IMG/VR virus record: IMGVR_UViG_3300025128_004324
Coordinates: 1 to 25,452 of that record
Length of the DNA stretch: 25,452 nt
Direction: 5' to 3' (one strand)
Origin: a virus
The position numbers were made by a program, and so were the translations under genes. Shown here one piece after another: positions 233-20,658 of the stretch; positions within the stretch are counted from its first letter, which is position 1; each line of letters opens with the position of its first letter. The notes under the pieces are model-generated. The model ran no database searches. It worked only from the letters and a program-made list of their open reading frames with translations, and had not been told where the DNA came from.

Positions 233-1451
233 GAATACTGTCAGTGCGCCTAAAAAATCACAACGATCTGATGACCTTCAAGTATTACGAGAAGCAGGGT
301 TATTGGAAGAAGATAGCGTAGCGCTATCTACTCCTAGAAAAGAAGATTTGGATATTCTTCAAGCAGCAGGACTGTTAGAAGAAAAACCAAAATCACCCAA
401 AATTGTTTCCATAGTAAAAGAAGATAAGTCTGACGATATTACTAAAAAACAACTCAATGATATTGAGAAGTATGCAGATAAAATATTTCGTGCAGTAGGT
501 ATTGATGTAGAATTTACTCGACATTTTCTTGACCGTGTAAATGATTCACGAAACAAAAAACAAATCACTCCCGCTGAACTCGTTAGACTGTTCAAACAAT
601 CCTATAAAAAATACGGCAAGAAGATTTCTAAACTTGGTGCAGAAGCCCAAGCAGTAATCAATGATATGCGTACAGATATCAATATGCCTTTTGTACTGGA
701 ACCCAAAGGAAATGAATTAGAACTTATTGCTAAGACTGTAATGAGAAAGAAGGATTTTAAAACATCAAATCCTAAGTTGTCATTTGAGTCTTATACTAAG
801 GGCGATACTGTTACCACTGATGATGCTTTGGTTCTTAAAGAAGAAAGTTTGGATGATTTTAAACATCCTAAGATAGAAGATAGACCAGTAGAACATGTTG
901 AGGGAGATTGGAAGAATTTAGCAGTACCCTCACCTTCTCCTAATAGTAGTGAGGACACATTAAAAGAACTTCTACTATCACAAAAATTAGGGGTAAGTAG
1001 AACAGAGGAGCAAGAGAAGAGTGTTCTTAATCATGACAGCAGTGCTGCTTATGCTGTTAAACAGTATATGGATGCTAATAAATTATCATATGATAAAAAG
1101 GAATTTGATAAGGTTATAGAGGCTGGTCGAGGAGTTGGACGTTTTTATAAGAATATGTTCCAACGCCCCCGTCCTTGGGAACTTGCAGAAAAGTTAAATA
1201 TTAATATTCATCATATGGAGTTTCCTTCTGACAGTATGGATTCTCCAGCATATCCAAGTAATCATAGTTTACAGTCAAGGTTGGTTGCAGAGTATTATGC
1301 TCAAATGTATCCTCAACATAGGGCACAATTAATTAAAGCCGCAGAAGAAAGTGGTGTTGGTAGAGTTAGAGCTGGGTGGCATTATAATTCAGATCAAGGT
1401 TGGTTGCAGAGTATTATGCTAAAATACATCCTCAACATAGGACACAATTAA
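219..1451 (+). CDS. PAP2-motif domain protein, N-terminal part of a frame-broken fibre gene
   Basis: The N-terminal ~200 residues contain a conserved-looking block around FTRHFLDRVNDSRN and DMRTDINMPFVLEP that resembles domains in marine T4-like phage structural proteins. Residues 311-392 carry the full three-part PAP2/haloperoxidase signature: K311-x6-R318-P319, then P346-S-N-H349, then R382-x5-H388-x3-D392. These residues form the phosphohydrolase site in that superfamily; activity here is inferred. After D392 the frame enters the second copy of a 119-bp tandem duplication and ends in 18 unrelated residues. Removing one copy fuses this frame to the following one, giving a 1462-residue protein with a PAP2-like domain ahead of a repeat fibre. 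The last 18 residues should not be treated as real protein. Confidence 0.75.
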   Translation: MKRFKNTVSAPKKSQRSDDLQVLREAGLLEEDSVALSTPRKEDLDILQAAGLLEEKPKSPKIVSIVKEDKSDDITKKQLNDIEKYADKIFRAVGIDVEFTRHFLDRVNDSRNKKQITPAELVRLFKQSYKKYGKKISKLGAEAQAVINDMRTDINMPFVLEPKGNELELIAKTVMRKKDFKTSNPKLSFESYTKGDTVTTDDALVLKEESLDDFKHPKIEDRPVEHVEGDWKNLAVPSPSPNSSEDTLKELLLSQKLGVSRTEEQEKSVLNHDSSAAYAVKQYMDANKLSYDKKEFDKVIEAGRGVGRFYKNMFQRPRPWELAEKLNINIHHMEFPSDSMDSPAYPSNHSLQSRLVAEYYAQMYPQHRAQLIKAAEESGVGRVRAGWHYNSDQGWLQSIMLKYILNIGHN

Positions 1452-1512
1452 TTAAAGCCGCAGAAGAAAGTGGTGTTGGTAGAGTTAGAGCTGGGTGGCA
1501 TTATAATTCAGA
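1275..1512 (+). repeat. 119-bp imperfect tandem duplication, left edge of fibre segment
   Basis: Copy 1 is 1275-1393 and copy 2 is 1394-1512, with no spacer. I count four substitutions, near 1301-1308 and 1324 in copy 1. At protein level AQMYPQHRAQ becomes AKIHPQHRTQ. Because 119 is not a multiple of three, the duplication breaks the reading frame. The unit encodes the third PAP2 motif. Two near-identical abutting copies with strain-like substitutions look like an unmerged contig overlap, although a true duplication is possible. Confidence 0.95.
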
Positions 1513-4500
1513 CCATAAAGCAGGGGTTACTCTTGCTGAACAATTGGTCAAGATGATTAATATCAAAACCAAATCGACTGAAGAATTTACAAATATTCTT
1601 GAAAATTACCAAGAGGTTTTGGAAGACGCAAAAGAAAAGGAATTTAATTATAAGTTGGAAACTGGTTTAAAAACTTTGGAACAACGAGAAATAAAGAAAG
1701 CAGCTTCCTTTATTACAGAAGGTGCTCCACCCAAAGAACCAGAAAAATCAACCGAAGAAAAATTACAAGAACAAATCGAATCACTATCTAATCTAAAACG
1801 TGATTTACCGAATATGATGGCAACTACCGCTGGTGGTGGTTCTATCTTTTTGTATGATTTAGATGATGTAGATGAATCTACTAGACAGGACGGTTATTTC
1901 TTAAAGTATAGAGCATCAGACCAAAAATTTATTGGTGAGGCTTCTGCTGTATCCAGTGAAACCATTCAAGATGTTGTTGGGAATATGGTTACATCAAATA
2001 CCGAAACAGGTATGACGGTAACATATGAAGATGGCGATGGTACATTAGATTTTGTAATTGGTACACTTAATCAAGATACCACAGGAAACGCTGCAACTGC
2101 GACAACTCTTGCTACTGCTAGAACAATTGGTGGTACAAGTTTTGATGGTTCTGCTAATATTGCAGTAGCACTTTCTGCTACAACAACAGCACTTGCAAAT
2201 GCAAGAACTATTGGTGGTGTATCTTTTGACGGTACTGCTAATATTAATTTGCCAGGCGTAAATACTTCTGGTAATCAAGACACTAGTGGGACTGCTTCAA
2301 AGGCTACAGTTTCAGACAGTACTGCAAATACAAACTTCCCTGTTGTTTTCCATGATGAATCAAATGGACTGTTAGATGACACAGGTGCATTACGATATAA
2401 CCCAAGTACAGGTGAACTACTTGTACCAAATCTTACTGTAGCAGGCACAACCACACAAGTTGATACTGTTACCATGAACGCACAGAACGCAGTTATTTTT
2501 GAGGGCGCAACTGCTGATGCACATGAAACAACATTAACTGTTACAGACCCAACTACTGACCGTACTATTACGTTGCCCAATGCAACAGGTACAGTTGCAT
2601 TAACTTCTAGTGATATCACAGGTAATGCTGCAACTGCCACAGCACTTGCAACGGCCAGAACTATAGGTGGAACCTCCTTTGATGGTACAGCAAATATTGC
2701 TGTTGCTCTATCTGCTACCGCTACTGCACTTGCTACGGGTAGAACTATCGGAATGACAGGTGATGTTGTTTGGACTTCTGCTTCCTTTGATGGTACTGGA
2801 AATGTCACTGGTTCTGCCACAATTCAAGCAAATTCCGTAGACGGTACTATGATTGCAGTTGGTTCTGATGCCTCAGGTGACATACTGTATTATGATGGTA
2901 CTAATTATGTGCGTCTTGGTAAGGGTGACGATGACCAAGTATTAACTCTCTCTTCTGGTGTTCCTTCTTGGGCCGCAGCTGGTGGTACTTCTGATGAATC
3001 CATTCAAGATGTTGTCGGTGCAATGTTTAGTTCTAATACTGAAACTGGTATTACTGCGACATATCAAGATGGTGACGGTACAATAGATTTGGTTGTAGGA
3101 ACTCTTAATCAGGATACTACTGGACTTGCTGCAACTGCTACTGCACTTGCTACTGCTAGAACAATAGGTGGAACTTCATTCGATGGTACTGCGAACATTG
3201 CTGTCGCCCTTGCGGCAACCGCAACTGCTCTTGCTAGTGCAAGAACTATTCATGGTGTTAGTTTTGATGGGACTGCAAATATAGATTTAACTGAAGTCGT
3301 ACAAGATACAGTTGGTGCTATGTTTAGCTCCAATACTGAAACTGGTATTACTGTATCGTATGAAGATGGTGATGGAACCATAGACCTTGTAGTTGGTACA
3401 TTAAACCAAGATACTACTGGAACTGCTGCAATTGCAACAACAGTTACTATAACTGACAATGAATCCACAAATGAAAACAATGCTCTTATCTTTACAGCTG
3501 GTGGGGATGTTGATGGTGGTAATCTTGGATTAGAATCAGATGGTACATTAACATACAATCCTAGTACTGGTAAAATAACCGCTACTGGATTTATAGGTGC
3601 ATTAACAGGTGATGTTACAGGCGATGTAACAGGTAATGTGAGTGGCACGGCCGCAACAGTTACAACTGCAGCTCAATCTAATATAACCTCATTGGGTACA
3701 CTGACTACTCTTACAGTTGATAATATTATTATCAATGGAACGAATATAGGACATACTTCTGATACAGATGCAATTGCAATTGCCTCTGATGGTAAGGTTA
3801 CATTTACACAAGAAATTATTGCAACATCATTAGATATTTCTGGCGATGTAGATGTTGATGGTACATTAGAAACAGATGCATTAACAATTGGTGGCACTAC
3901 ACTTGCAGAAACTATTGCTGATACAGTTGGTGCAATGGTTGGTAGTAATACTGAAACGGGTATTACAGTAACTTATCAAGATGGCGATAACACGTTAGAC
4001 TTTGCTGTTGGAACTCTAAACCAAGATACTACAGGAAGTGCTGCAACTTTAACAACTGCAAGAAGTATCGCAATGTCAGGTGATGTTGTGTGGAGTGTAT
4101 CATTTGATGGTAGTGGTAATGTAACTGCTGCTGGAACCATACAAAGTGGCGCAGTAGAAACGGGAATGATTGCTGCTGACGCAATAACTGCTGCAAAGAT
4201 TGCTGATGATGTTATAAATAGTGAACATATCGTAGCTGATTCAATTGATGCAGAACACTATGCTGCTGGAAGTGTTGATACAACAGCACTTGCCGTTAAT
4301 GCGGTAACTGTGAGTAAGATTAATGGTGATGCGGTAACAGGTGCAAAGATTGCTGATGATTCTATTGACAGTGAACATTATGTAGATGGTTCGATTGATA
4401 CTGCTCACATTGCTGATTCTCAAATAACTTCTGCTAAAATTGCAGATGGAACTATTGTTGCTGGAGACATTGCCGATCAGGCTATAAATTCTAATAAAAT

Positions 4501-4726
4501 TCTTGATGGAGCTATTGTGTCAGGCGATTTAGCTGACAATGCTGTAACAACTCTGAAGATAAATAATGATGCAGTAACAGGTGCAAAGATTGCTGACGAT
4601 ACAGTTGCAGAAGCAAATATGGCAGATGATGCAATTGGTTCTGCTCAACTTAAAACATTATCCACATTATTAATTAAAAATTCTGGTGGAACTACATTAA
4701 AAACTGTACATGGAGCAGGAGCATGA
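1400..4726 (+). CDS. Repeat-rich phage tail fibre or adhesin, C-terminal part
   Basis: This 1108-residue frame opens inside duplication copy 2, with TTG as the first possible start, so it is best seen as the continuation of the gene beginning at 219. It first repeats the end of the PAP2 motif and then has a charged, probably coiled-coil segment. Next comes a DLDDVDESTRQDGYFLKY-type block found in marine T4-like fibre proteins. The bulk consists of degenerate repeats: ARTIGGTSFDGTANI units, and four SNTETGITVTYEDGDGT...GTLNQDTTG blocks near 1971-2085, 3001-3125, 3301-3420 and 3911-4033. The last ~190 residues repeat AKIADDSIDSEHY-like motifs. Such low-complexity beta-type repeats suit a trimeric virion fibre that recognises the host surface. 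The stop overlaps the first copy of the next gene's start. Confidence 0.8.
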   Translation: MVAEYYAKIHPQHRTQLIKAAEESGVGRVRAGWHYNSDHKAGVTLAEQLVKMINIKTKSTEEFTNILENYQEVLEDAKEKEFNYKLETGLKTLEQREIKKAASFITEGAPPKEPEKSTEEKLQEQIESLSNLKRDLPNMMATTAGGGSIFLYDLDDVDESTRQDGYFLKYRASDQKFIGEASAVSSETIQDVVGNMVTSNTETGMTVTYEDGDGTLDFVIGTLNQDTTGNAATATTLATARTIGGTSFDGSANIAVALSATTTALANARTIGGVSFDGTANINLPGVNTSGNQDTSGTASKATVSDSTANTNFPVVFHDESNGLLDDTGALRYNPSTGELLVPNLTVAGTTTQVDTVTMNAQNAVIFEGATADAHETTLTVTDPTTDRTITLPNATGTVALTSSDITGNAATATALATARTIGGTSFDGTANIAVALSATATALATGRTIGMTGDVVWTSASFDGTGNVTGSATIQANSVDGTMIAVGSDASGDILYYDGTNYVRLGKGDDDQVLTLSSGVPSWAAAGGTSDESIQDVVGAMFSSNTETGITATYQDGDGTIDLVVGTLNQDTTGLAATATALATARTIGGTSFDGTANIAVALAATATALASARTIHGVSFDGTANIDLTEVVQDTVGAMFSSNTETGITVSYEDGDGTIDLVVGTLNQDTTGTAAIATTVTITDNESTNENNALIFTAGGDVDGGNLGLESDGTLTYNPSTGKITATGFIGALTGDVTGDVTGNVSGTAATVTTAAQSNITSLGTLTTLTVDNIIINGTNIGHTSDTDAIAIASDGKVTFTQEIIATSLDISGDVDVDGTLETDALTIGGTTLAETIADTVGAMVGSNTETGITVTYQDGDNTLDFAVGTLNQDTTGSAATLTTARSIAMSGDVVWSVSFDGSGNVTAAGTIQSGAVETGMIAADAITAAKIADDVINSEHIVADSIDAEHYAAGSVDTTALAVNAVTVSKINGDAVTGAKIADDSIDSEHYVDGSIDTAHIADSQITSAKIADGTIVAGDIADQAINSNKILDGAIVSGDLADNAVTTLKINNDAVTGAKIADDTVAEANMADDAIGSAQLKTLSTLLIKNSGGTTLKTVHGAGA

Positions 4727-11372: not shown

Positions 11373-12896
11373 ATGGACTTTATACTATTTACACCATTTG
11401 ATCGGTCTAGATTTTTAGGTGCATACAGAATAGCTAGAATTTTAAGAGATGAAGGATATTCTGTAATAGTAGTTGATTTTATGCAACAAATGTTAGAAGA
11501 TTCTTCTGAATTACTATTGTGGTTACAAAAACACGTTCATGATAATACCGTTTTCGGATTTTCTGGTACTTTCATGAGTTTTGCTATAGTAGATGATGAT
11601 TTTGGTGAAAAAAGTTCCCTTCCAGATGACCGTAAATTCAAAAGATATTCGAGAACTTTAGCACGAAGAAAATTTGCTGCAGAAGCTGGAAGAAGCGTTC
11701 GGCCCGAAGTGGTAGAATTTCTTGATGATTTAAAAATGGATTTCCCCGATAACAAAATAGTAATCGGCGGCGCTGGATTCATTGCTGAATTTATGTTTAG
11801 AAGTTTACCCATAGACCATTTGTTCATGGGATATAGTGAAGAAACAGCAACAAGGGAACTTGTTGATATTTACAAGGGAAAGGATGTAACGGATGTAATA
11901 CATCAAGACCCCTTTGAATTAACCTTTGATTTTCATAATACAGGCAATACTTTTGATGCCGAAGATATTATATTTCCCAATGAAGTTTTACCTTTAGAAA
12001 TAAGTAGGGGGTGTAGATTTGCATGTAAGTTTTGTGGTTGGGCTTTGACAGGAAGAAAAATGTCTGATAAGTATATTAGACATAAAGATAAAATTTTCAA
12101 TGAACTGATGCATAACTATGAACTTTTTGGAACATCAAATTACAATATGATGTGCGATACATTCAATGAGTCAAATGAAAAACTTTTAATGTTGAAGGGA
12201 ATATTTGATGAATTTAATAAACTTACGGGAGAAAGACTACGATTCAATTCATACCTTAGATTAGAGCTAATGAAAAGATTTCCAGAACAAATTAATATAT
12301 TACGAGACATGGGAATTATCGCTACTAATTTAGGAATAGAAACCTTACATTACCCCTCTGCAAAAGCAATAGGTAAGGGGATTCTTCCCGAAGACGTTTA
12401 TAATACAGTTAGTAAAATGAGAGAATCGTGGGGTGAAGAGGCTAGACTACATTCTGGTTTTATTATTGGTTTACCTTATGAAACAAAGGAAACTGCGACA
12501 AAGTGGTTGACTAGTTTATATAATAAAGAACTAGATTTAACAAGTTGGAAACTATCGCCGTTGAGAATTAACACAAATAGGGCAAGTGAATTTACTAGTC
12601 CATTTGATAGAGAAACCGATAAATATGGTTATAGAATGTCTTCAACTAAGTGGAAGCCTGAATCTTGGATAAATGCCCCCGATGGTTCTGAAGTATGGGA
12701 AAATGAACATTGGGATTATTATGAGTGTGATGAATTAGTAGCAGAATGGACTAAGAAATTTAATAACGATGGTATTGTAAAATTTGCAGATCATCCTTGG
12801 GGATATTTAAACTATAAACATGGAATTATTAAAGGACAGCGAGGTAGACCAAGCAAAGATGTTGTCCAAAAATATCGTGATAGGTTATTACAATGA
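11373..12896 (+). CDS. Radical SAM protein with B12-binding-like N-terminal domain
   Basis: Residues 214-221 carry the CxxxCxxC cluster motif (C214, C218, C221) that binds the [4Fe-4S] cluster cleaving S-adenosylmethionine, followed by a radical SAM barrel (GIETLHYPSAKAIGKG, GFIIGLPYET). The N-terminal ~190 residues look like the Rossmann fold of B12-binding radical SAM enzymes (MDFILFTPFDRSRFLGAYRI, KIVIGGAGF), but I see no DxHxxG cobalamin ligand motif. The substrate is unknown. Candidates include methylation or modification of nucleic acid or protein, or a hopanoid- or anaerobic-type reaction, none supported here. It overlaps the following nuclease gene by 4 nt. The Arg/Lys-rich C-terminus (KGQRGRPSKD) might contact nucleic acid. 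Confidence 0.8.
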   Translation: MDFILFTPFDRSRFLGAYRIARILRDEGYSVIVVDFMQQMLEDSSELLLWLQKHVHDNTVFGFSGTFMSFAIVDDDFGEKSSLPDDRKFKRYSRTLARRKFAAEAGRSVRPEVVEFLDDLKMDFPDNKIVIGGAGFIAEFMFRSLPIDHLFMGYSEETATRELVDIYKGKDVTDVIHQDPFELTFDFHNTGNTFDAEDIIFPNEVLPLEISRGCRFACKFCGWALTGRKMSDKYIRHKDKIFNELMHNYELFGTSNYNMMCDTFNESNEKLLMLKGIFDEFNKLTGERLRFNSYLRLELMKRFPEQINILRDMGIIATNLGIETLHYPSAKAIGKGILPEDVYNTVSKMRESWGEEARLHSGFIIGLPYETKETATKWLTSLYNKELDLTSWKLSPLRINTNRASEFTSPFDRETDKYGYRMSSTKWKPESWINAPDGSEVWENEHWDYYECDELVAEWTKKFNNDGIVKFADHPWGYLNYKHGIIKGQRGRPSKDVVQKYRDRLLQ

Positions 12897-13830: not shown

Positions 13831-14109
13831 ATGGAAGCATTTAAGCTAATTGCTGATCTTGGTTTTTCTATCGCAGCATTGTTTGGCGGTGGATTCTTTA
13901 TTATTCTACTTTTGAAATATATTCTGGAGTCTGTAGTAAGTAAGGCTCAAGGACTAAATGGTATGATTAGTGCGTTGGACAATAGGGTAAAAACTATTAA
14001 CAACGAAATCGTCCGTTTAGATGCATTAATATGCCATGCGTTGGGTGTTAAACCAGATACCCGAAGATTATCTGCTGCCGATGGAAAAGAAGACGCAAGG
14101 AAAGATTGA
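13831..14109 (+). CDS. N-terminal membrane segment plus coiled-coil protein A
   Basis: A hydrophobic segment (IAALFGGGFFIILLLKYIL, about residues 14-32) is followed by a helical region with heptad spacing (ISALDNRVKTINNEIVRLDALI). It then has a polar tail rich in Arg and Asp. It resembles the next gene product in layout, and both contain a (D/N)x(I/M)xRLD segment, suggesting a related pair. This is the first gene of the run that leads into the curli-like genes. A holin-like or membrane-scaffold role is possible but unproved. Confidence 0.65.
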   Translation: MEAFKLIADLGFSIAALFGGGFFIILLLKYILESVVSKAQGLNGMISALDNRVKTINNEIVRLDALICHALGVKPDTRRLSAADGKEDARKD

Positions 14110-14441
14110 TGCAAGAATTTATTAATGCAGTTAATCAGTATGGTGTGCCAACCGTAACAGCGGTGGGTATGGCCTATTTTATATATTTTATATGGAAGTT
14201 TGTTACAACCACAATTCTTCCATCACTTAATCAAGCTTCAACTACATTAGTTGCTCTCATAGATAGAGTGAGGATGCTTGATAATGATATGATACGATTA
14301 GACCAAAAGATTAATACTATAATTGAAATTCAAGACCAGCAAAATGACCCATTTGAGAAAGCACAAAAAATAAGAGATGAACAGCAAGATAAAAAGATAA
14401 ATAGCAATTCGGCAACTATTAAAAAATTAAAGGAGAAATAA
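14109..14441 (+). CDS. N-terminal membrane segment plus coiled-coil protein B
   Basis: One hydrophobic segment (VTAVGMAYFIYFIWKFVTTT, about residues 15-34) precedes a helical region (LIDRVRMLDNDMIRLDQKIN) and a charged Lys-rich end. I place the start at the ATG whose first base is the last base of the previous stop; a TTG one codon earlier is also possible. The layout matches the preceding protein, and similar proteins occur in marine T4-like phages. Its last base is shared with the ATG of the oxygenase gene, so the genes are coupled. Confidence 0.65.
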   Translation: MQEFINAVNQYGVPTVTAVGMAYFIYFIWKFVTTTILPSLNQASTTLVALIDRVRMLDNDMIRLDQKINTIIEIQDQQNDPFEKAQKIRDEQQDKKINSNSATIKKLKEK

Positions 14442-15019
14442 TGAATGTGCGTGATTTTATACAGTATTTTCCAGATACACTAAATGAAGAAATATGTGAT
14501 AATATAATTTTTGATTTAAAGAAAAAGTTGCCAGAAACAGATTTATTACCTCGTTTCTTAGATAAGATATCTGAAGAGGATAAAGAGTATAAATGTCTAT
14601 CTGAAGCGGTTAAGGAAATAAAACAAAAATATTTACAGGTAATACCTGATTATGTTAAAAATTATCATGATGTATCAGGAGAGGATTTTAATATAAAAGA
14701 AGCTATACATAAAAAGCTAAGAGTACATTATTATCCTACAGGGGGAAATGTAGGTATTCATATTGATAATACTGGAGCAAGAAAAAGATATATGAAAAAA
14801 AATAAAAGCTTACCAAACACTGAACGTAATTTTGCTCAGTTGTCTTGTTTAGTATTTTTAAATGATAATTATGAAGGGGGTGAATTTGTAGTTGCAGATC
14901 AAGAATATGAAACATCAAAAGGGTCTGCTTTAATTTTTCCAGCAAACTTTATGTTCCCCCATAAAGTTAAGGAAGTTACCAAGGGAGAGCGCTGGAGTAT
15001 TGGCGCATTTTTAAGATGA
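14441..15019 (+). CDS. 2-oxoglutarate/Fe(II)-dependent oxygenase, prolyl-hydroxylase-like
   Basis: The metal-binding triad is visible as H107-x-D109 (in NVGIHIDNTG) and H174 (FPHKV), with the 2-oxoglutarate-binding Arg ten residues later at R184 (ERWSIG). GGEFVV and SALIFPANFMFPHKV are typical of the prolyl-4-hydroxylase-like group. These enzymes hydroxylate a protein side chain, nucleic acid or small molecule while consuming 2-oxoglutarate. Marine T4-like phages carry many, mostly with unknown substrates. Its stop overlaps the csgF ATG (ATGA), so it is probably translated together with the curli-like genes and might modify one of their products. No signal peptide, so it acts in the cytoplasm. 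Confidence 0.85.
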   Translation: MNVRDFIQYFPDTLNEEICDNIIFDLKKKLPETDLLPRFLDKISEEDKEYKCLSEAVKEIKQKYLQVIPDYVKNYHDVSGEDFNIKEAIHKKLRVHYYPTGGNVGIHIDNTGARKRYMKKNKSLPNTERNFAQLSCLVFLNDNYEGGEFVVADQEYETSKGSALIFPANFMFPHKVKEVTKGERWSIGAFLR

Positions 15020-15480
15020 ATAATACTAAATATATTTTCGTTGGAATTTTAACATGTATGATATATGTAATGTATATTGATTCAGTTAATGCTGGGCAAT
15101 TAACACACCAGTTTAAATCTCCGGCTTTTAATGGTCAGGGATATAGCGCACATGTGTTGACGATTGAGAACCAAGAGTTTTCTCGTAAAAAAGCAATTAG
15201 AGAAAAAAGAGAAGCAGCAGAAAGACAAGCAGCAAGAGATGCCGCAAATACAAACCTTTCCAAATTTATGAAAAATGTGGAAAGCAGGATTTATGCTCAG
15301 CTTTCAAAACAATTAGTAGACAGTATGTTTGGAGAAGATTCTGGTACATCAGGTACAGTAACTTTTGAAGGTACTACAATTAGTTATGTTAAAGATTCTC
15401 AAAACGTAACTTTAACAATAGTGGATGCAAATGGTAGTGAAACGGTTATTACAGTTCCTATCGGCGATTTTACTTTTTAG
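15016..15480 (+). CDS. csgF: Curli assembly factor CsgF-like protein
   Basis: CsgF caps the CsgG outer-membrane pore and guides curli nucleation at the cell surface. A signal peptide ends ...VNA at residue 26. The mature start, GQLTHQFKSPAFNG, has the same form as E. coli mature CsgF (G..T.QF..P.F.G), the segment that inserts into the CsgG channel. An extended charged helix follows (RKKAIREKREAAERQAARD), then FMKNVESRIYAQLSKQLV and a beta-rich tail (TLTIVDANGSETVITVPIG), matching the known fold order. At 154 residues it is slightly longer than E. coli CsgF (138). It overlaps csgG by 56 nt in another frame, which strongly couples the two. Confidence 0.88.
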   Translation: MNNTKYIFVGILTCMIYVMYIDSVNAGQLTHQFKSPAFNGQGYSAHVLTIENQEFSRKKAIREKREAAERQAARDAANTNLSKFMKNVESRIYAQLSKQLVDSMFGEDSGTSGTVTFEGTTISYVKDSQNVTLTIVDANGSETVITVPIGDFTF

Positions 15481-16225
15481 TGCGGCGGGATGCCAAACGA
15501 TTCCTACAGAGGAACCCAAGGTATCTTCTGCACCACTAGTAAATCAACTAGAAATATTAACACCTCCCGTAAGGAAGGTGCCGATAGCTGTTTATCAATT
15601 TGGTGATTTAACAGGTCAAAGAAAACCAAGTGAAACTCTTGCCTCCTTTAGTACTGCTGTAACTCAAGGAGCTCATGTAATGTTAATTCAGGCCTTGAAA
15701 AAAGCAGGGAATGGAGAGTGGTTTCAAGTAGTAGAAAGAGTAGGATTAGATAATTTATTAAAAGAACGACAAATCATACGAAATACCAGAGAACAATTTG
15801 AAGGTAAAGATGCTAAAAAACTTAAAGGTCTATTATTTGCTGGAGTTTTACTTGAAGGTGGTGTTGTCGGGTATGATACTAATATTGAGACAGGTGGTGT
15901 GGGAGCAAGATATCTTGGACTAGGTATACATGATGAATATCGCAGAGATATAGTATCAGTAGGTATAAGACTTATATCAGTACAAACAGGTGAGGTTCTA
16001 TTGGCGATAAGTACTCACAAAACAATATTGAGTACAAAAGTTGGACTTAATGTTTTTAGATTTTTAGATATGGGAACAAAACTTTTAGAGACTGAAATAG
16101 GATTTACACAAAATGAATCCATAACTTATGCAGTACGAAAAGCAATAGAAACTTCTGTTGTAGAATTAGTAAAAAAAGGTGAAAAGAATAAGTTATGGGA
16201 ATTTAAAAAGGAGGAAGAAAAATGA
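15425..16225 (+). CDS. csgG: Curli secretion pore lipoprotein CsgG-like
   Basis: CsgG forms the outer-membrane oligomeric channel that exports curli subunits. The lipobox ends LFSAAGC with C23 as the lipid-bearing residue. Diagnostic segments are FSTAVTQGAHVMLIQAL, ERVGLDNLLKERQIIR, GGVGARYLGLG, STHKTIL and FRFLDMGTKLLETEIGFT, all in the same order as E. coli CsgG. The full family length is present (266 residues), with no truncation. In the constriction loop the E. coli Tyr51/Asn55/Phe56 set appears as a one-residue-longer loop ending S74-F75, so only the Phe is kept. An ATG two codons later is an alternative start. The signal peptide is encoded inside the end of csgF. Confidence 0.93.
   Translation: MQMVVKRLLQFLSAILLFSAAGCQTIPTEEPKVSSAPLVNQLEILTPPVRKVPIAVYQFGDLTGQRKPSETLASFSTAVTQGAHVMLIQALKKAGNGEWFQVVERVGLDNLLKERQIIRNTREQFEGKDAKKLKGLLFAGVLLEGGVVGYDTNIETGGVGARYLGLGIHDEYRRDIVSVGIRLISVQTGEVLLAISTHKTILSTKVGLNVFRFLDMGTKLLETEIGFTQNESITYAVRKAIETSVVELVKKGEKNKLWEFKKEEEK
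16208..16214 (+). promoter_or_regulatory. Strong ribosome binding site before the first curlin gene
   Basis: AAGGAGG lies 7 nt before the ATG of the first curlin-repeat gene. It is the strongest Shine-Dalgarno match I see within the curli-like operon. This is consistent with the amyloid subunit being made in larger amounts than the pore, although expression level is inferred. Confidence 0.6.
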
Positions 16226-16905
16226 GAATAAGCATACTTACATTCCTAGCGGTCTTTGTTATGAGTGGTGTGAGCTATGCTAGTGATGTTTACATAACAC
16301 AGTCAGGCGCAAGTTTTACTGCGAATATAAATCAGGATGGACAGACAAACAAGTACGGACAATCAGGTGCAGTTGCAACACATACAGGTGATAATCAAAC
16401 TTTGGATATTGACCAAATTGGTAACACCAATACAATCGCTGCAACTGTTGTAGGTGCTGATCAAACAATAACTCTTAGACAAGAAGGTAATAGTAATACA
16501 TCTACAGTAACAGTTGGTTCAAACTCCGCTGCCGCAGACAATAGTATAATACAAACACTAACTGGTAGTTCTAATACAACTACGGTAAATGTTGGTACAT
16601 CTGCTGCTTCTGGTGACGCTGATATTGATCTTGTTGCAACAGGTGATAGCAATACTGTTACTATTAATGAAAATAGTACCGCAACAATGATTGGCGATGA
16701 TAAGAAAGTAACAAGTATAACTTTAAGTGGAAGTAGCAATACAGTTACATCAACACATACGGGTGCTGGAGATCACGATACCACATTAGCACATACTGGT
16801 TCCTCTGGAACTTTTAGTATCACTCAAGGTGGTGCTCATGATTCTAGTGTTGTCATGACAACCAGTGGGGCTGGACATAATGTTACGGTTACTCTTGACG
16901 ATTAG
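16222..16905 (+). CDS. Curlin-repeat amyloid candidate 1 (CsgA/CsgB-like)
   Basis: A signal peptide (20 residues, ending VSYA) is followed by SDVYITQSG and then degenerate curlin repeats of roughly 22-24 residues: INQDGQTN, IDQIGNTN, LRQEGNSN, LTGSSN, VATGDSN, LSGSSN. The Q-x-G-x2-N core is the hallmark of curlins, in which each repeat forms one strand-turn-strand rung of a cross-beta fibre. Later repeats lose the Gln but keep the G-x-S-N turn. The composition is dominated by Thr, Ser, Asn, Gly, Asp and Val, and I see no Cys. The gene sits directly after csgG with a 4-nt overlap, so it is the obvious export substrate. It could be a minor rather than major subunit, or a phage-specific amyloid. 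Confidence 0.8.
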   Translation: MRISILTFLAVFVMSGVSYASDVYITQSGASFTANINQDGQTNKYGQSGAVATHTGDNQTLDIDQIGNTNTIAATVVGADQTITLRQEGNSNTSTVTVGSNSAAADNSIIQTLTGSSNTTTVNVGTSAASGDADIDLVATGDSNTVTINENSTATMIGDDKKVTSITLSGSSNTVTSTHTGAGDHDTTLAHTGSSGTFSITQGGAHDSSVVMTTSGAGHNVTVTLDD

Positions 16906-17950
16906 TTTTATGATATTTGCCACTACATCATATGCTAGAATTGGAAATGTAATAGAACACAGGGGAAACGCTTCTGTTGAACGGAGTGGCGAAAAGTCCG
17001 TTCTGAAGAATGGTTCTGATGTTGAGTTTAAAGATAATGTCAGAACAGGCGATGGCGATGTTGGTATCAAATTTGTTGATGAAACTAATGTTGCCGTTAG
17101 TCCACATAGTTCTCTGATAATAGATGAGTTCATCTATGACCCGAATTCACGTTCTGGTTCTAAGTTGGTGATGAATATTGCGTTGGGTACTGTTCGTTAT
17201 GCGAGTGGTAATATTGCAAAACTTAATAGACAGAATGTTGATATACGAACGCCAACAGCAAGAATAGGTGTTAGGGGCACGGCTTTCAGCATGACGGTGG
17301 ATGAAATAGGTAAGTCTCTTGTAATTCTACTGCCTAATGCTGATGGGACAGTAGGTGAGATTTCAGTGGAGAGTGGTGCTGGTGTAGTGATTATGAATCA
17401 GGCATTTCAAGCAACTACAGTTGGTGTTGCAGAAGGTAAACCATCTAATCCAGTGATACTTGATTTGACGTTAGACCAGATAAACAATTTATTAATAATA
17501 AAACCACCAAAGGAGAAGTTGGTAGAGTTAGTAAAAGATTCAAAAAATTCTATGAATTTGTTAGATATTGATTTATTAGAATTTAAAGACTTGGATGAAA
17601 ATAAATTAGATAAAGATGAATTAGATTTTGGCCTGTTGGATATTAACGAGCTAGATATTGATTTACTTGCAAATATTTTAGATAAACTTACAACCGCATT
17701 AGATAAGAAGAAAGATACAGAACATCTTGATGGCAGAACATCAGGGTTTAATAAAGAAACAGGTGTAAATACTATAATAGATGGAAATTTTTTAGAGATT
17801 ATTCGGTATTCGGGTAGCAGTGCGGTTTGGTTGACATTAAATGGTGATTACGGATATAAAATAGATTTAACACAGGAAGGAATACCTGTGCCGGAGTTTA
17901 CAACAAATGATTCGATTGATAACAATATTACTATCTATCAGTCTGAGTAG
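16880..17950 (+). CDS. Exported FecR-domain protein
   Basis: I start at the ATG giving MLRLLLTISFMIFATTSYA as signal peptide; a GTG 15 nt upstream is an alternative. The FecR domain spans about residues 20-170 with T126-A-R-I-G-V-R-G-T134, the family's signature. Unlike classic FecR anti-sigma factors there is no cytoplasmic N-terminal region and no sigma factor gene nearby, so it is periplasmic and not an anti-sigma factor. Residues ~227-270 form an acidic Leu/Asp repeat (DIDLLEF, DELDFGLLDINELDID). The C-terminal ~60 residues appear beta-rich. It overlaps the first curlin gene by 26 nt and the second by 44 nt. A link between amyloid sensing and the downstream sensor cyclase is a reasonable guess. 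Confidence 0.82.
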   Translation: MLRLLLTISFMIFATTSYARIGNVIEHRGNASVERSGEKSVLKNGSDVEFKDNVRTGDGDVGIKFVDETNVAVSPHSSLIIDEFIYDPNSRSGSKLVMNIALGTVRYASGNIAKLNRQNVDIRTPTARIGVRGTAFSMTVDEIGKSLVILLPNADGTVGEISVESGAGVVIMNQAFQATTVGVAEGKPSNPVILDLTLDQINNLLIIKPPKEKLVELVKDSKNSMNLLDIDLLEFKDLDENKLDKDELDFGLLDINELDIDLLANILDKLTTALDKKKDTEHLDGRTSGFNKETGVNTIIDGNFLEIIRYSGSSAVWLTLNGDYGYKIDLTQEGIPVPEFTTNDSIDNNITIYQSE

Positions 17951-18629
17951 TATAGCATATGCCAATGAGGTTTATATTACACAGTCTGGTGACGATTTAA
18001 ATGTAAATATATCACAAGATGGTAGGAACAATACCATTACCAAAAACATATGGACTGTAGCATATGATTGGGAGGGTGATGATAATACATTTGATTTGAG
18101 ACAAAAAAATACACGAAATAATTCGTCAGATTCCAATTATCAAGGATTTCATATTGATGGGAATAATAACACTGTCAGAGTTGGGCAGGGATATGCAGAT
18201 TATGGAAGTCTGGCGACAGCAGGAAACCAATCTTGGGCAACAGATAATTGGGAAGGTGGTAATAATACAGCGATGGTAGATATTCATGGTGATAACAATA
18301 TTCTTAATATTGGTCAGAGAAATGGCCATCTAGGAAATTTTAATGGACATGATGCAACAGTAAATATATACGGTGATGATAACACAGCAAGGTCAGTACA
18401 GGTACATGATGGAGCAAAGGACTTGACATTGACACTTAATGGCGATGACCATACAGTTTATACAGAACAAAGAAATGCTGGTGCTCATAATGCAACAATT
18501 AGTTTAACAAATGGTAGTGATGCATATTCGCTTTCACTATCACAAAATTCTACAACAGCTCAAAATTATTCAATGACAGGTACATGTTACACTAGTGGAG
18601 GTTGCTCGGTTTCGGTGACACAGAATTGA
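17907..18629 (+). CDS. Curlin-repeat amyloid candidate 2
   Basis: The signal peptide (MIRLITILLSISLSSIAYA) leads into NEVYITQSGDD, almost the same mature start as the first curlin-like protein (SDVYITQSGAS). This suggests paralogues that share an export or nucleation signal. Repeats include ISQDGRNN, LRQKNTRNN, HIDGNNNTVRVGQG, DIHGDNNILNIGQRN, NIYGDDNTA and TLNGDDHTVYTEQRN, i.e. G-x-N-N turns with Gln in the following strand. Spacing is looser than in E. coli CsgA. The end has a Cys pair (GTCYTSGGC) and finishes VSVTQN. The signal peptide is mostly encoded within the end of the FecR gene. The pair could act as major subunit and nucleator, as CsgA and CsgB do. Confidence 0.75.
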   Translation: MIRLITILLSISLSSIAYANEVYITQSGDDLNVNISQDGRNNTITKNIWTVAYDWEGDDNTFDLRQKNTRNNSSDSNYQGFHIDGNNNTVRVGQGYADYGSLATAGNQSWATDNWEGGNNTAMVDIHGDNNILNIGQRNGHLGNFNGHDATVNIYGDDNTARSVQVHDGAKDLTLTLNGDDHTVYTEQRNAGAHNATISLTNGSDAYSLSLSQNSTTAQNYSMTGTCYTSGGCSVSVTQN

Positions 18630-18630
18630 T

Positions 18631-20478
18631 ATGAAAAAATGGATTGTCTCTACCTTAGTTATCTTAATTTTATCTGGTATTCACTTTTCAAACCCGTGGT
18701 TCCTCGACATGGTGCGAATGAAAGCACTAGACCAACATCAACGCAATCAAGAGATACAATCTCTTTCAAATTTAGTAACAGTAGAAATCAACAATGAAAC
18801 AATCAAGAAAAAAGGACAGTGGCCTTGGGATAGAAACACACTGTCAAATGAAATTATCAAACTCTATCAGCAAGGTGCTGGTTTGGTTGTACTTCCCATC
18901 CTTTTTGCAGACAAGGATAGATTCGGAAAAGATGAAGCCTTAGCAAGAACACTCAAAAGAACACCCACAATTATAGGCCAAATACCCACTACAGATGATA
19001 GCAATTCTGGTGTAACCCGTGGAGTTGCAAAGGTAGGTTCGCCTTGGTATGGATGGTTAAATCAATATCAGGGAGCATTGGGCCCTATACCAGAACTAGC
19101 AAAGAGTGCTAATGGTGTAGGTATGTTGATTATTTCACCAGAAGGTGATGGTGTAGTTAGACGTATGCCTTTAGTAGTTGCAGTTGGAGATGAAGTATAT
19201 CCTGCTATTAGTTTAGAAGTTCTACGCATGGCAGCGGGTGATATATCCTACCAGATGAAAACTGGTATCGCTGGTGTGGAAGCAATAAGAATACCGAAGT
19301 ATAAAATCATAAAGACAGACCCACATGGTAACATATGGCTTGATTTCAAATGGAAAACACCTGTTTATGCCTTACATGAGAAGCTACCAGATATCAAAGG
19401 AAAAATAGTTATACTGAGTATTACTGCTACAGGGTTGAATAATCCTGTTACGACTCCTGTAGGAGTTATTCATTCCCACGATTTAATTGGTTCATCTCTT
19501 GCAACGATGATGACAGGAAGAAACATCACACGCCCATATTGGACTAATTTTGCTGAACTTGGTGCTTCAATGGGACTTGCCTTTTTACTCATGATTGTGG
19601 TATTATTATTACCGTGGTATTTCGGCGCAGTATTGATGCCCACCACAGTAGTAGGATTATTTTATGGGAGTTCACATTTATTTACTAAATATGATTTACT
19701 GGTGGATTGGAGTTACCCTGTACTTACTGTATTTGTCGCATGGGCAATTGCTGCATTTCTTAGGTTCATGGAAGAGTTCAAGTTGCGTCAACAAATCAAG
19801 AAACAGTTTGAACACTATCTGGCACCAGAGATGGTCAAGAGATTACAGAAGAATCCAGAACTATTACAGTTGGGTGGTGAACGTAGAGAGATGAGTTTTC
19901 TTTTTATGGACATAGTGGGCTTTACGCCCATAAGTGAGTACTATAAGAATAATGATGATCCAGAAGGACTAGTAGAATGTATTAATGATTATCTTAATCG
20001 TATGACTAAAATAGTTTTAAAGAACGGTGGGACGGTGGATAAATATATGGGCGACTGTATTATGGCATTTTGGAACGCTCCACTAGATTGTGAAAATCAT
20101 GCAGAAATGGCAGTACGAACTTCTGTTGAATGTGCAGTAGAAACAGAAGCATTAAAACAGTCATTTAAAGATAAAGGACTGCCAGAGATAAATATAGGTA
20201 GTGGAGTAAATACTGGAACATGTATCGTAGGTAATATGGGCAGTGATTCCAGATTTGATTATTCTGTTATAGGTGATGCAGTAAACCTTGCTGCAAGGCT
20301 TGAAGCAGCAACTCGTAACTATAAAAAAGATGATGGTGGTATTGTGAATACCCTCTATTCGTCATATACGCAAGATCAACTCCCCGAAGAACTAAGAGGG
20401 GAAGAGATTGATAAAATCAAGGTGAAGGGAAAGGAAGAATTAGTTACCATATACAAACCAAGAGATAAAAATGAATAA
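18631..20478 (+). CDS. CHASE2-domain class III adenylate cyclase
   Basis: The layout is an N-terminal membrane segment (~4-20), a CHASE2 extracytoplasmic sensor (~25-300, with VTVEINNETIKKKGQWPWDR and DIKGKIVILS), about three membrane segments (~308-392), then a cytoplasmic class III cyclase domain (~420-590). Metal-binding Asp residues are D427 (FMDIVGFT) and D475 (KYMGDCIMAF). Transition-state N552 and R556 are in VNLAAR. K471 and S545 sit at the purine-selecting positions; a Lys with Thr/Ser is typical of class IIIb adenylate cyclases. All catalytic residues are present, so it should be active as a homodimer making cAMP. It starts one base after the second curlin gene. A signalling cyclase is unusual for a phage; the ligand sensed is unknown. 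Confidence 0.9.
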   Translation: MKKWIVSTLVILILSGIHFSNPWFLDMVRMKALDQHQRNQEIQSLSNLVTVEINNETIKKKGQWPWDRNTLSNEIIKLYQQGAGLVVLPILFADKDRFGKDEALARTLKRTPTIIGQIPTTDDSNSGVTRGVAKVGSPWYGWLNQYQGALGPIPELAKSANGVGMLIISPEGDGVVRRMPLVVAVGDEVYPAISLEVLRMAAGDISYQMKTGIAGVEAIRIPKYKIIKTDPHGNIWLDFKWKTPVYALHEKLPDIKGKIVILSITATGLNNPVTTPVGVIHSHDLIGSSLATMMTGRNITRPYWTNFAELGASMGLAFLLMIVVLLLPWYFGAVLMPTTVVGLFYGSSHLFTKYDLLVDWSYPVLTVFVAWAIAAFLRFMEEFKLRQQIKKQFEHYLAPEMVKRLQKNPELLQLGGERREMSFLFMDIVGFTPISEYYKNNDDPEGLVECINDYLNRMTKIVLKNGGTVDKYMGDCIMAFWNAPLDCENHAEMAVRTSVECAVETEALKQSFKDKGLPEINIGSGVNTGTCIVGNMGSDSRFDYSVIGDAVNLAARLEAATRNYKKDDGGIVNTLYSSYTQDQLPEELRGEEIDKIKVKGKEELVTIYKPRDKNE

Positions 20479-20626
20479 ACCTAGAAACTATTTCCCCCTC
20501 AAAACAGGACATATCCCGTCTGATATATATTTTAAGCATCAAGCTCTATACTGTGATTCTGAACTATTTAAAGGCGTAGTTTTAGCCTTTATTTTTGGAT
20601 TTATATTAGGAATTGCCGTAATTTAG
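20471..20626 (+). CDS. Small protein with C-terminal membrane helix (51 aa)
   Basis: The ATG lies inside the end of the cyclase gene (8-nt overlap). The polar N-terminal half (MNKPRNYFPLKTGHIPSD) is followed by a hydrophobic end (GVVLAFIFGFILGIAVI), so it is tail-anchored. It is the last gene of the overlapping run that includes the curli-like genes and stops just before the next promoter. No family is recognised. Confidence 0.55.
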   Translation: MNKPRNYFPLKTGHIPSDIYFKHQALYCDSELFKGVVLAFIFGFILGIAVI

Positions 20627-20629
20627 TAC

Positions 20630-20658
20630 TTGACAAATGATGTTTTTTAATGTATACT
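20630..20658 (+). promoter_or_regulatory. Consensus sigma70-type promoter
   Basis: TTGACA and TATACT are separated by 17 bp, one base short of full consensus overall. It sits in the 60-bp gap between the curli-containing run and the bS21 block and would drive the genes from 20687 on. An AAGAGG ribosome site follows. It implies that this block is read early by host RNA polymerase. Confidence 0.8.

Follow-up and report, generated by a model that had tools for sequence, protein, structure and literature searches.

A further member of the phage curli (type VIII secretion) module, and the possible roles of its FecR-domain protein and CHASE2 cyclase

What might a phage gain from carrying the export pore of bacterial curli, two curlins, a FecR-domain protein and an adenylate cyclase as neighbouring genes? 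The question is raised by the IMG/VR virus record IMGVR_UViG_3300025128_004324, a stretch of 25,452 bases (the window), in which Pfam and PHROGs annotation identified consecutive genes on the + strand between 13831 and 20626. The locus adds a member to the curli (type VIII secretion) modules already known from marine T4-like phages, with earlier descriptions from viruses infecting SAR11 and OM43 bacteria. The explanation favoured here, held with a little more confidence than doubt, is that the module exports its curlins through CsgG-CsgF as a surface amyloid, with the FecR-domain protein acting as anchor and nucleator, and the cyclase as sensor. The genes concerned are the following.

13831..14109, +, tm1: 92 amino acids, one predicted transmembrane segment and a coiled coil; phrog_18771 (function unknown), PHROGs 1.4e-23
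14106..14441, +, tm2: 111 amino acids, paralogue of tm1; phrog_18771 6.3e-30
14441..15019, +, 2OG-Fe(II) (2-oxoglutarate and iron) oxygenase, between tm2 and csgF: PF13640 5e-14; phrog_61 1.3e-26
15016..15480, +, CsgF: secreted; PF10614 3e-20; mature protein with a conserved N-terminal segment, GQLTHQFKSPAFNG
15425..16225, +, CsgG, outer-membrane pore lipoprotein: PF03783 5.6e-56; lipobox AAGC, Cys23
16222..16905, +, curlin 1: 227 amino acids, signal peptide, weak curlin repeats, without a Cys pair; PF07012 7.7e-4
16880..17950, +, FecR-domain protein: GTG start at 16865 possible; PF04773 5.6e-7 to 5.8e-7
17907..18629, +, curlin 2: 240 amino acids, signal peptide, curlin repeats, C-terminal Cys pair GTCYTSGGCSVSVTQN; PF07012 1.4e-7
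18631..20478, +, CHASE2-transmembrane-class III adenylate cyclase: PF05226 1.1e-35, PF00211 1.5e-16

An initial sequence-only reading had placed csgF, csgG, two curlins, FecR and a CHASE2-cyclase contiguously on one strand. The Pfam matches bear this out, with the six genes from csgF to the cyclase each overlapping or abutting the next. The same reading had csgF as the first gene, at 14441; csgF is indeed present, but starts at 15016, and the PF13640 match at 14441-15019 means the first gene of 14441-20626 is the oxygenase instead. The unit begins further upstream, as tm1 and tm2 (13831-14441) belong to the conserved set. Nor is the module "fused" in the protein sense, as it consists of separate neighbouring genes.

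The composition of the unit was established from 74 viral loci, found by CsgG similarity and scored for gene content with profile hidden Markov models built from the window proteins. Order counts take 86 loci, with each gene counted only where the contig extends far enough; the loci are related and were found via CsgG, hence these counts are not independent events. The order tm-tm-CsgF-CsgG-curlin-FecR-curlin-cyclase was kept wherever the contig was long enough: the tm pair in 72/73 loci (the sole exception being L017), curlin 1 in 75/75, FecR in 60/60, curlin 2 in 54/54 and the cyclase in 33/33. Where a locus lacked a member, a contig end was close by. The oxygenase, by contrast, lies between tm2 and csgF only in the window contig among the loci scanned, being absent from this position in L014 and L015, the loci closest to the window in gene order. 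It is an insertion inside an otherwise constant unit.

The cassette is also found on contigs of 250 kb (L018) and 340 kb (L020), both of which also encode the T4 capsid protein gp23 (E about 1e-81). Hence jumbo-size phages carry the module too, on which no paper was found in the literature collection searched. At the L020 locus, curlin 2 and the cyclase are separated by three additional genes, two of which resemble, by eye, cytochrome or copper-monooxygenase genes.

The scan of bacterial genomes returned 80 loci, ten of which have the full or truncated phage order and lie in metagenome-assembled genomes (MAGs). Two of these (L087 and L095) carry T4 gp23, and are hence binned phage contigs. The remaining eight (L078-L083, L092 and L116) are shorter contigs with a phage-type cassette. 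They sit in GTDB MAGs assigned to Flavobacteriaceae, Rhodobacteraceae and Pelagibacter, probably as phage DNA binned in error. The other 70 loci, nearly all from Alphaproteobacteria, have CsgF in 68 cases and curlins in 67, while FecR, cyclase and tm genes were detected at none of them with the phage profiles, which very distant FecRs could escape. The full gene order is therefore not confined to bacterial chromosomes, and a maximum-likelihood tree places the phage CsgGs on one side of a 100/100 branch from 19 bacterial CsgGs.

This census, together with the phages HTVC008M and Melnitz, supports the earlier view that a phage carries a curli-type module in which FecR and a CHASE2-cyclase accompany two curlins. 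The accompanying belief that no full cassette was known was wrong, as the same gene order occurs in both phages and was published in 2022 (PMC9599517). A pelagimyophage "curli operon" had already been described, with a proposal of sibling capture (Zaragoza-Solas 2020, PMC7029224). The cassette was then reported in the OM43 phage Melnitz, with csgA/B stated to be missing (Buchholz 2022, PMC9004378), and as CsgF-CsgG-CsgA/B-FecR-CsgA/B-adenylate cyclase (AC) from both podophages and myophages, occurring at each of the 65 GOV2.0 stations and in pelagiphages worldwide (Wittmers 2022, PMC9599517). Metatranscriptomes show the cassette to be expressed (PMC9599517), and some of the most abundant marine bacteria, which curli-carrying phages infect, are published as having no curli of their own. 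Phage families of the cassette are also already in PHROGs (phrog_35372, phrog_20175, phrog_37870 and phrog_35576).

CsgG matches the E. coli CsgG structure 3x2r (E 9.6e-53, aligned over residues 11-265), and its lipobox Cys23 is invariant in the CsgG alignment. A single-sequence search with CsgF found no match in the PDB. P36, F38 and G40 are invariant in 17 phage CsgFs, within a protein whose mature N-terminal segment is conserved. This segment is the part of CsgF seated in the CsgG barrel. As for the putative substrates, curlin 2 is above the Pfam PF07012 cut-off, and curlin 1 matches the curlin 2 family profile with 99.6% probability. A C-terminal Cys pair, C-x(3-8)-C, is present in 59/59 complete curlin 2 proteins (28/28 non-redundant), compared with 0/77 for curlin 1. 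AlphaFold2 predicts an entirely beta structure for curlin 2 (pLDDT 74, pTM 0.78), for which Foldseek gave no significant match in the PDB (best E 0.01).

The Pfam FecR family was matched by 19/19 FecRs scanned, and the AlphaFold2 model of the window FecR consists of a signal-peptide helix, the FecR domain (about residues 20-200), a disordered stretch at 204-283, and a C-terminal beta domain ending ITIYQSE. The FecR domain follows directly after the signal peptide, with no N-terminal cytoplasmic anti-sigma domain, and the window annotation has neither a sigma factor nor a TonB receptor gene beside it. In fold, the domain resembles the periplasmic domains of anti-sigma proteins (Z 14.5-15.8 across 137-140 residues), and residues 18-114 align to 73/76 residues of 5ix9 (Z 7.6, 30% identity, profile E 0.07), a domain by which an RTX ice-binding adhesin is anchored at the cell surface. 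At the other end of the protein, the motif [IVL]x[IVLM]xQ is found in the last ten residues of 22/23 non-redundant FecRs, against 17/665 windows (2.6%) from other parts of these proteins and 0/329 open reading frames (ORFs) outside the cassette; Ile352 and Gln354 are invariant, and the curlins share this type of C-terminal ending. Hence this is most likely an anchored fibre nucleator, and not an iron regulator. The more specific architecture, of a periplasmic plug, a linker and a nucleator strand, is a tentative proposal that is more likely wrong than right. A shade more doubtful still is the full combination, in which the protein would be a new type of anchor-nucleator, comprising a plug, a linker through the CsgG channel and a curlin-like seeding strand, that tethers amyloid unlike CsgB-based curli, with cAMP acting via an unknown route in hosts without a known receptor.

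The cyclase matches CyaB (3r5g, 6.5e-32), and its catalytic residues are intact, with the full set in the window protein: metal-binding Asp427 and Asp475, adenine-specifying Lys471 and Asp543, and transition-state Asn552 and Arg556. The metal Asp, Lys and Arg are present in 46/46 homologues. In 16/46, Ser takes the place of the adenine Asp and the transition-state Asn; one cyclase type combines the change from Asn to Ser with a C-terminal extension. The two halves of the protein have different histories: the window is 35% identical to HTVC008M in CHASE2 and 77% in the cyclase domain, whereas the corresponding values relative to locus L007 are 72% and 36%, from which it follows that sensor and output move separately. 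Comparison of the window with L002, L003, L007, L014, L017, L019 and L040 shows that catalytic domains have been exchanged between phages, with CHASE2 being lineage-specific.

The favoured explanation builds on the observed gene order, families, conservation and intact catalytic residues. During infection, the cassette proteins would cross the inner membrane by Sec, and CsgG and CsgF would build an outer-membrane pore, through which the two curlins would leave and assemble into surface amyloid. The FecR domain would stay in the periplasm as a plug, with the disordered linker threading the CsgG channel, such that the C-terminal curlin-like strand could start the fibre outside, a role like that of CsgB combined with an adhesin's retention domain. 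The CHASE2 cyclase would probably sense the state of the periplasm via its sensor domain, and make cAMP in the cytoplasm. The likely gain would be an infected cell with an altered surface, which would shut out competing phages or keep sister cells close. Neither benefit is a new idea, as superinfection block and cell aggregation, also raised by the sequence-only reading, have both been proposed in print (PMC7029224, PMC9599517).

Several observations weigh against this explanation. Firstly, Melnitz cultures showed neither clumping nor fibres (PMC9004378), and amyloid formation by phage curlins is a prediction, demonstrated for no phage curlin. Secondly, the phage unit is without CsgE or CsgC, and curlin 1 falls slightly under the curated PF07012 cut-off. 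Thirdly, it is an anti-sigma protein, PupR, that the FecR domain matches best in fold (Z 15.8), the match to 5ix9 is middling, and hhalign pairs the FecR tail with the two curlins end-to-end at the C-terminus only weakly (probabilities of 8.5% and 26%). Fourthly, a search for proteins with a cyclic nucleotide (cNMP)-binding domain had no hits in HTVC008M, Melnitz and three phage contigs, and none in 40/41 genomes of the family of a Pelagibacter MAG (the SAR11 family); the same 40 genomes also have no class III cyclase, and the single genome with hits is a 1.6 Mb outlier. Hence, if the host of the window is SAR11-like, the cyclase would make cAMP without a canonical receiver, and the suggestion of a cAMP signal tied to amyloid is doubtful as ordinary signalling.

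The alternative that survives best, although we judge it improbable, is that proposed for Melnitz (PMC9004378), in which CsgGF is a gated pore or pinholin timing lysis, and the curlins are relics. The lack of clumping in Melnitz cultures fits this proposal, as does the ability of CsgG alone to be a pore (PMC9004378), and two small transmembrane proteins always precede the cassette, lying directly before csgF in 72/73 testable related loci. As holins, these tm proteins give weak matches only (YvrJ in 3/26, best E 0.093). Against it, curlin 1, FecR and curlin 2 are retained at every locus that extends far enough, as is the Cys pair in all complete curlin 2 proteins; Melnitz itself encodes two curlin-repeat genes, contrary to the statement that csgA/B are missing; and a pore in the outer membrane leaves the inner membrane closed.

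Less probable again is that the pore mainly imports nutrients or cofactors, with FecR and the cyclase regulating uptake, as raised in PMC7029224 and PMC9599517. The similarity to PupR is relevant here, as FecR domains occur in iron-regulating anti-sigma proteins. Yet the signal peptide of the window FecR, its lack of a cytoplasmic anti-sigma domain, and the absence of an adjoining TonB receptor or sigma factor gene do not correspond to such a regulator, and import leaves two curlins unexplained. It is slightly more unlikely still that the curlins decorate the virion as adhesive structures instead of the cell. The unit does adjoin tail and baseplate genes in HTVC008M and Melnitz, and HTVC008M curlin 2 has an additional N-terminal region of about 200 amino acids. 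But all structural proteins of the cassette have signal peptides and come with an outer-membrane exporter of their own, in keeping with release from the cell, and virions assemble in the cytoplasm. Finally, a chimeric contig, or a bacterial operon in a viral bin, can be rejected, as nothing beyond the bacterial ancestry of CsgG speaks for it, independent contigs hold the cassette between the same flanking phage genes, two complete phage genomes carry it, and the 70 bacterial csg loci are without FecR, cyclase and tm genes.

The surroundings of the unit are those of a phage, as the sequence-only reading had stated: the flanks encode a tail fibre, primase, class II ribonucleotide reductase, rnh-type exonuclease and DUF6433 protein, with the closest relative of the exonuclease being in phage Melnitz. 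Two features lie at the downstream end.

20471..20626, +, ORF of 51 amino acids: overlaps the cyclase stop codon; one hydrophobic segment; read by eye
20630..20658, +, sigma-70-like promoter TTGACA-17-TATACT: consensus scan, 11/12; directly after the unit

The ORF is a possible last gene of the unit. The promoter suggests that the downstream genes may form a separate transcript, although the sigma-70 consensus scan overall found fewer sites in the window than in shuffles. The T4 late promoter TATAAATA has one site in the window, which is below chance expectation, and none close to the cassette; an Rfam search gave 0 matches. Elsewhere in the window, a radical SAM/B12-binding protein (11373-12896) has 0 PHROGs matches, and a near-identical stretch (VAEYYA..HRxQLIKAAEESGVGRVRAGWHYNSD) is common to the end of a PAP2-like gene (1-1451) and the start of the tail-fibre frame (1400-4726), which suggests a local duplication.

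That the eight-gene unit is kept whole across phages of very different genome size, including those of 250-340 kb, argues for one machine, rather than loose genes. Among the points added here to the literature, those we consider worth following are how the FecR protein is built, the lack of a receiver for cAMP, the swapping of cyclase domains and the jumbo-size carriers; the first two make previously vague ideas directly testable. Were a surface amyloid indeed made, planktonic cells would carry an extracellular matrix built by a virus.

The window can be compared with several known systems. The periplasmic domain of the FecR/PupR anti-sigma proteins (6ovk, 4m0n) has a fold like that of window FecR residues 49-208 (Z 15.8 and 14.6), but the window protein starts with a signal peptide in place of a cytoplasmic anti-sigma part, and has an added linker and C-terminal beta domain. 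Relative to the RTX adhesin, the window FecR shares the alignment to the anchoring domain, but has no RTX repeats, and its pore is CsgG, not a type I system. Bacterial curli, in Alphaproteobacteria and the csg system of E. coli, have CsgF, CsgG and curlin-repeat proteins in common with the window, but the phage unit is distinguished by lacking CsgE and CsgC, and by the FecR, cyclase and tm genes that are not within reach at the 70 bacterial loci.

The remaining comparisons are with phage systems. The T8SS partner-AMG module of HTVC023P-type podophages and pelagimyophages (PMC9599517) has the CsgF-CsgG-CsgA/B-FecR-CsgA/B-AC order of the window. As in that work, csgF is preceded by one or two genes; the label given there is histidine kinase, whereas the window has proteins of 92-111 amino acids with a transmembrane segment and coiled coil in this position. 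No histidine-kinase (HisKA/HATPase) Pfam domain was found in 26 tm-family members, and HTVC008M, a founding member, has the same tm genes before csgF; hence the label appears doubtful, if meant for the tm genes. OM43 phage Melnitz (MZ577097) has the same genes in the same order as the window, but the catalytic domain of its cyclase is of the other type, with Ser at the Asn site. HTVC008M (KC465899) matches the window in order and strand, from the tm pair to the CHASE2 cyclase, with CsgGs that are about 54% identical. It differs in having no 2OG oxygenase before csgF, and in the additional N-terminal region of its curlin 2 (L002:10638-11960), which is absent from window curlin 2, and is adhesin-domain-like, resembling PA14 by eye.

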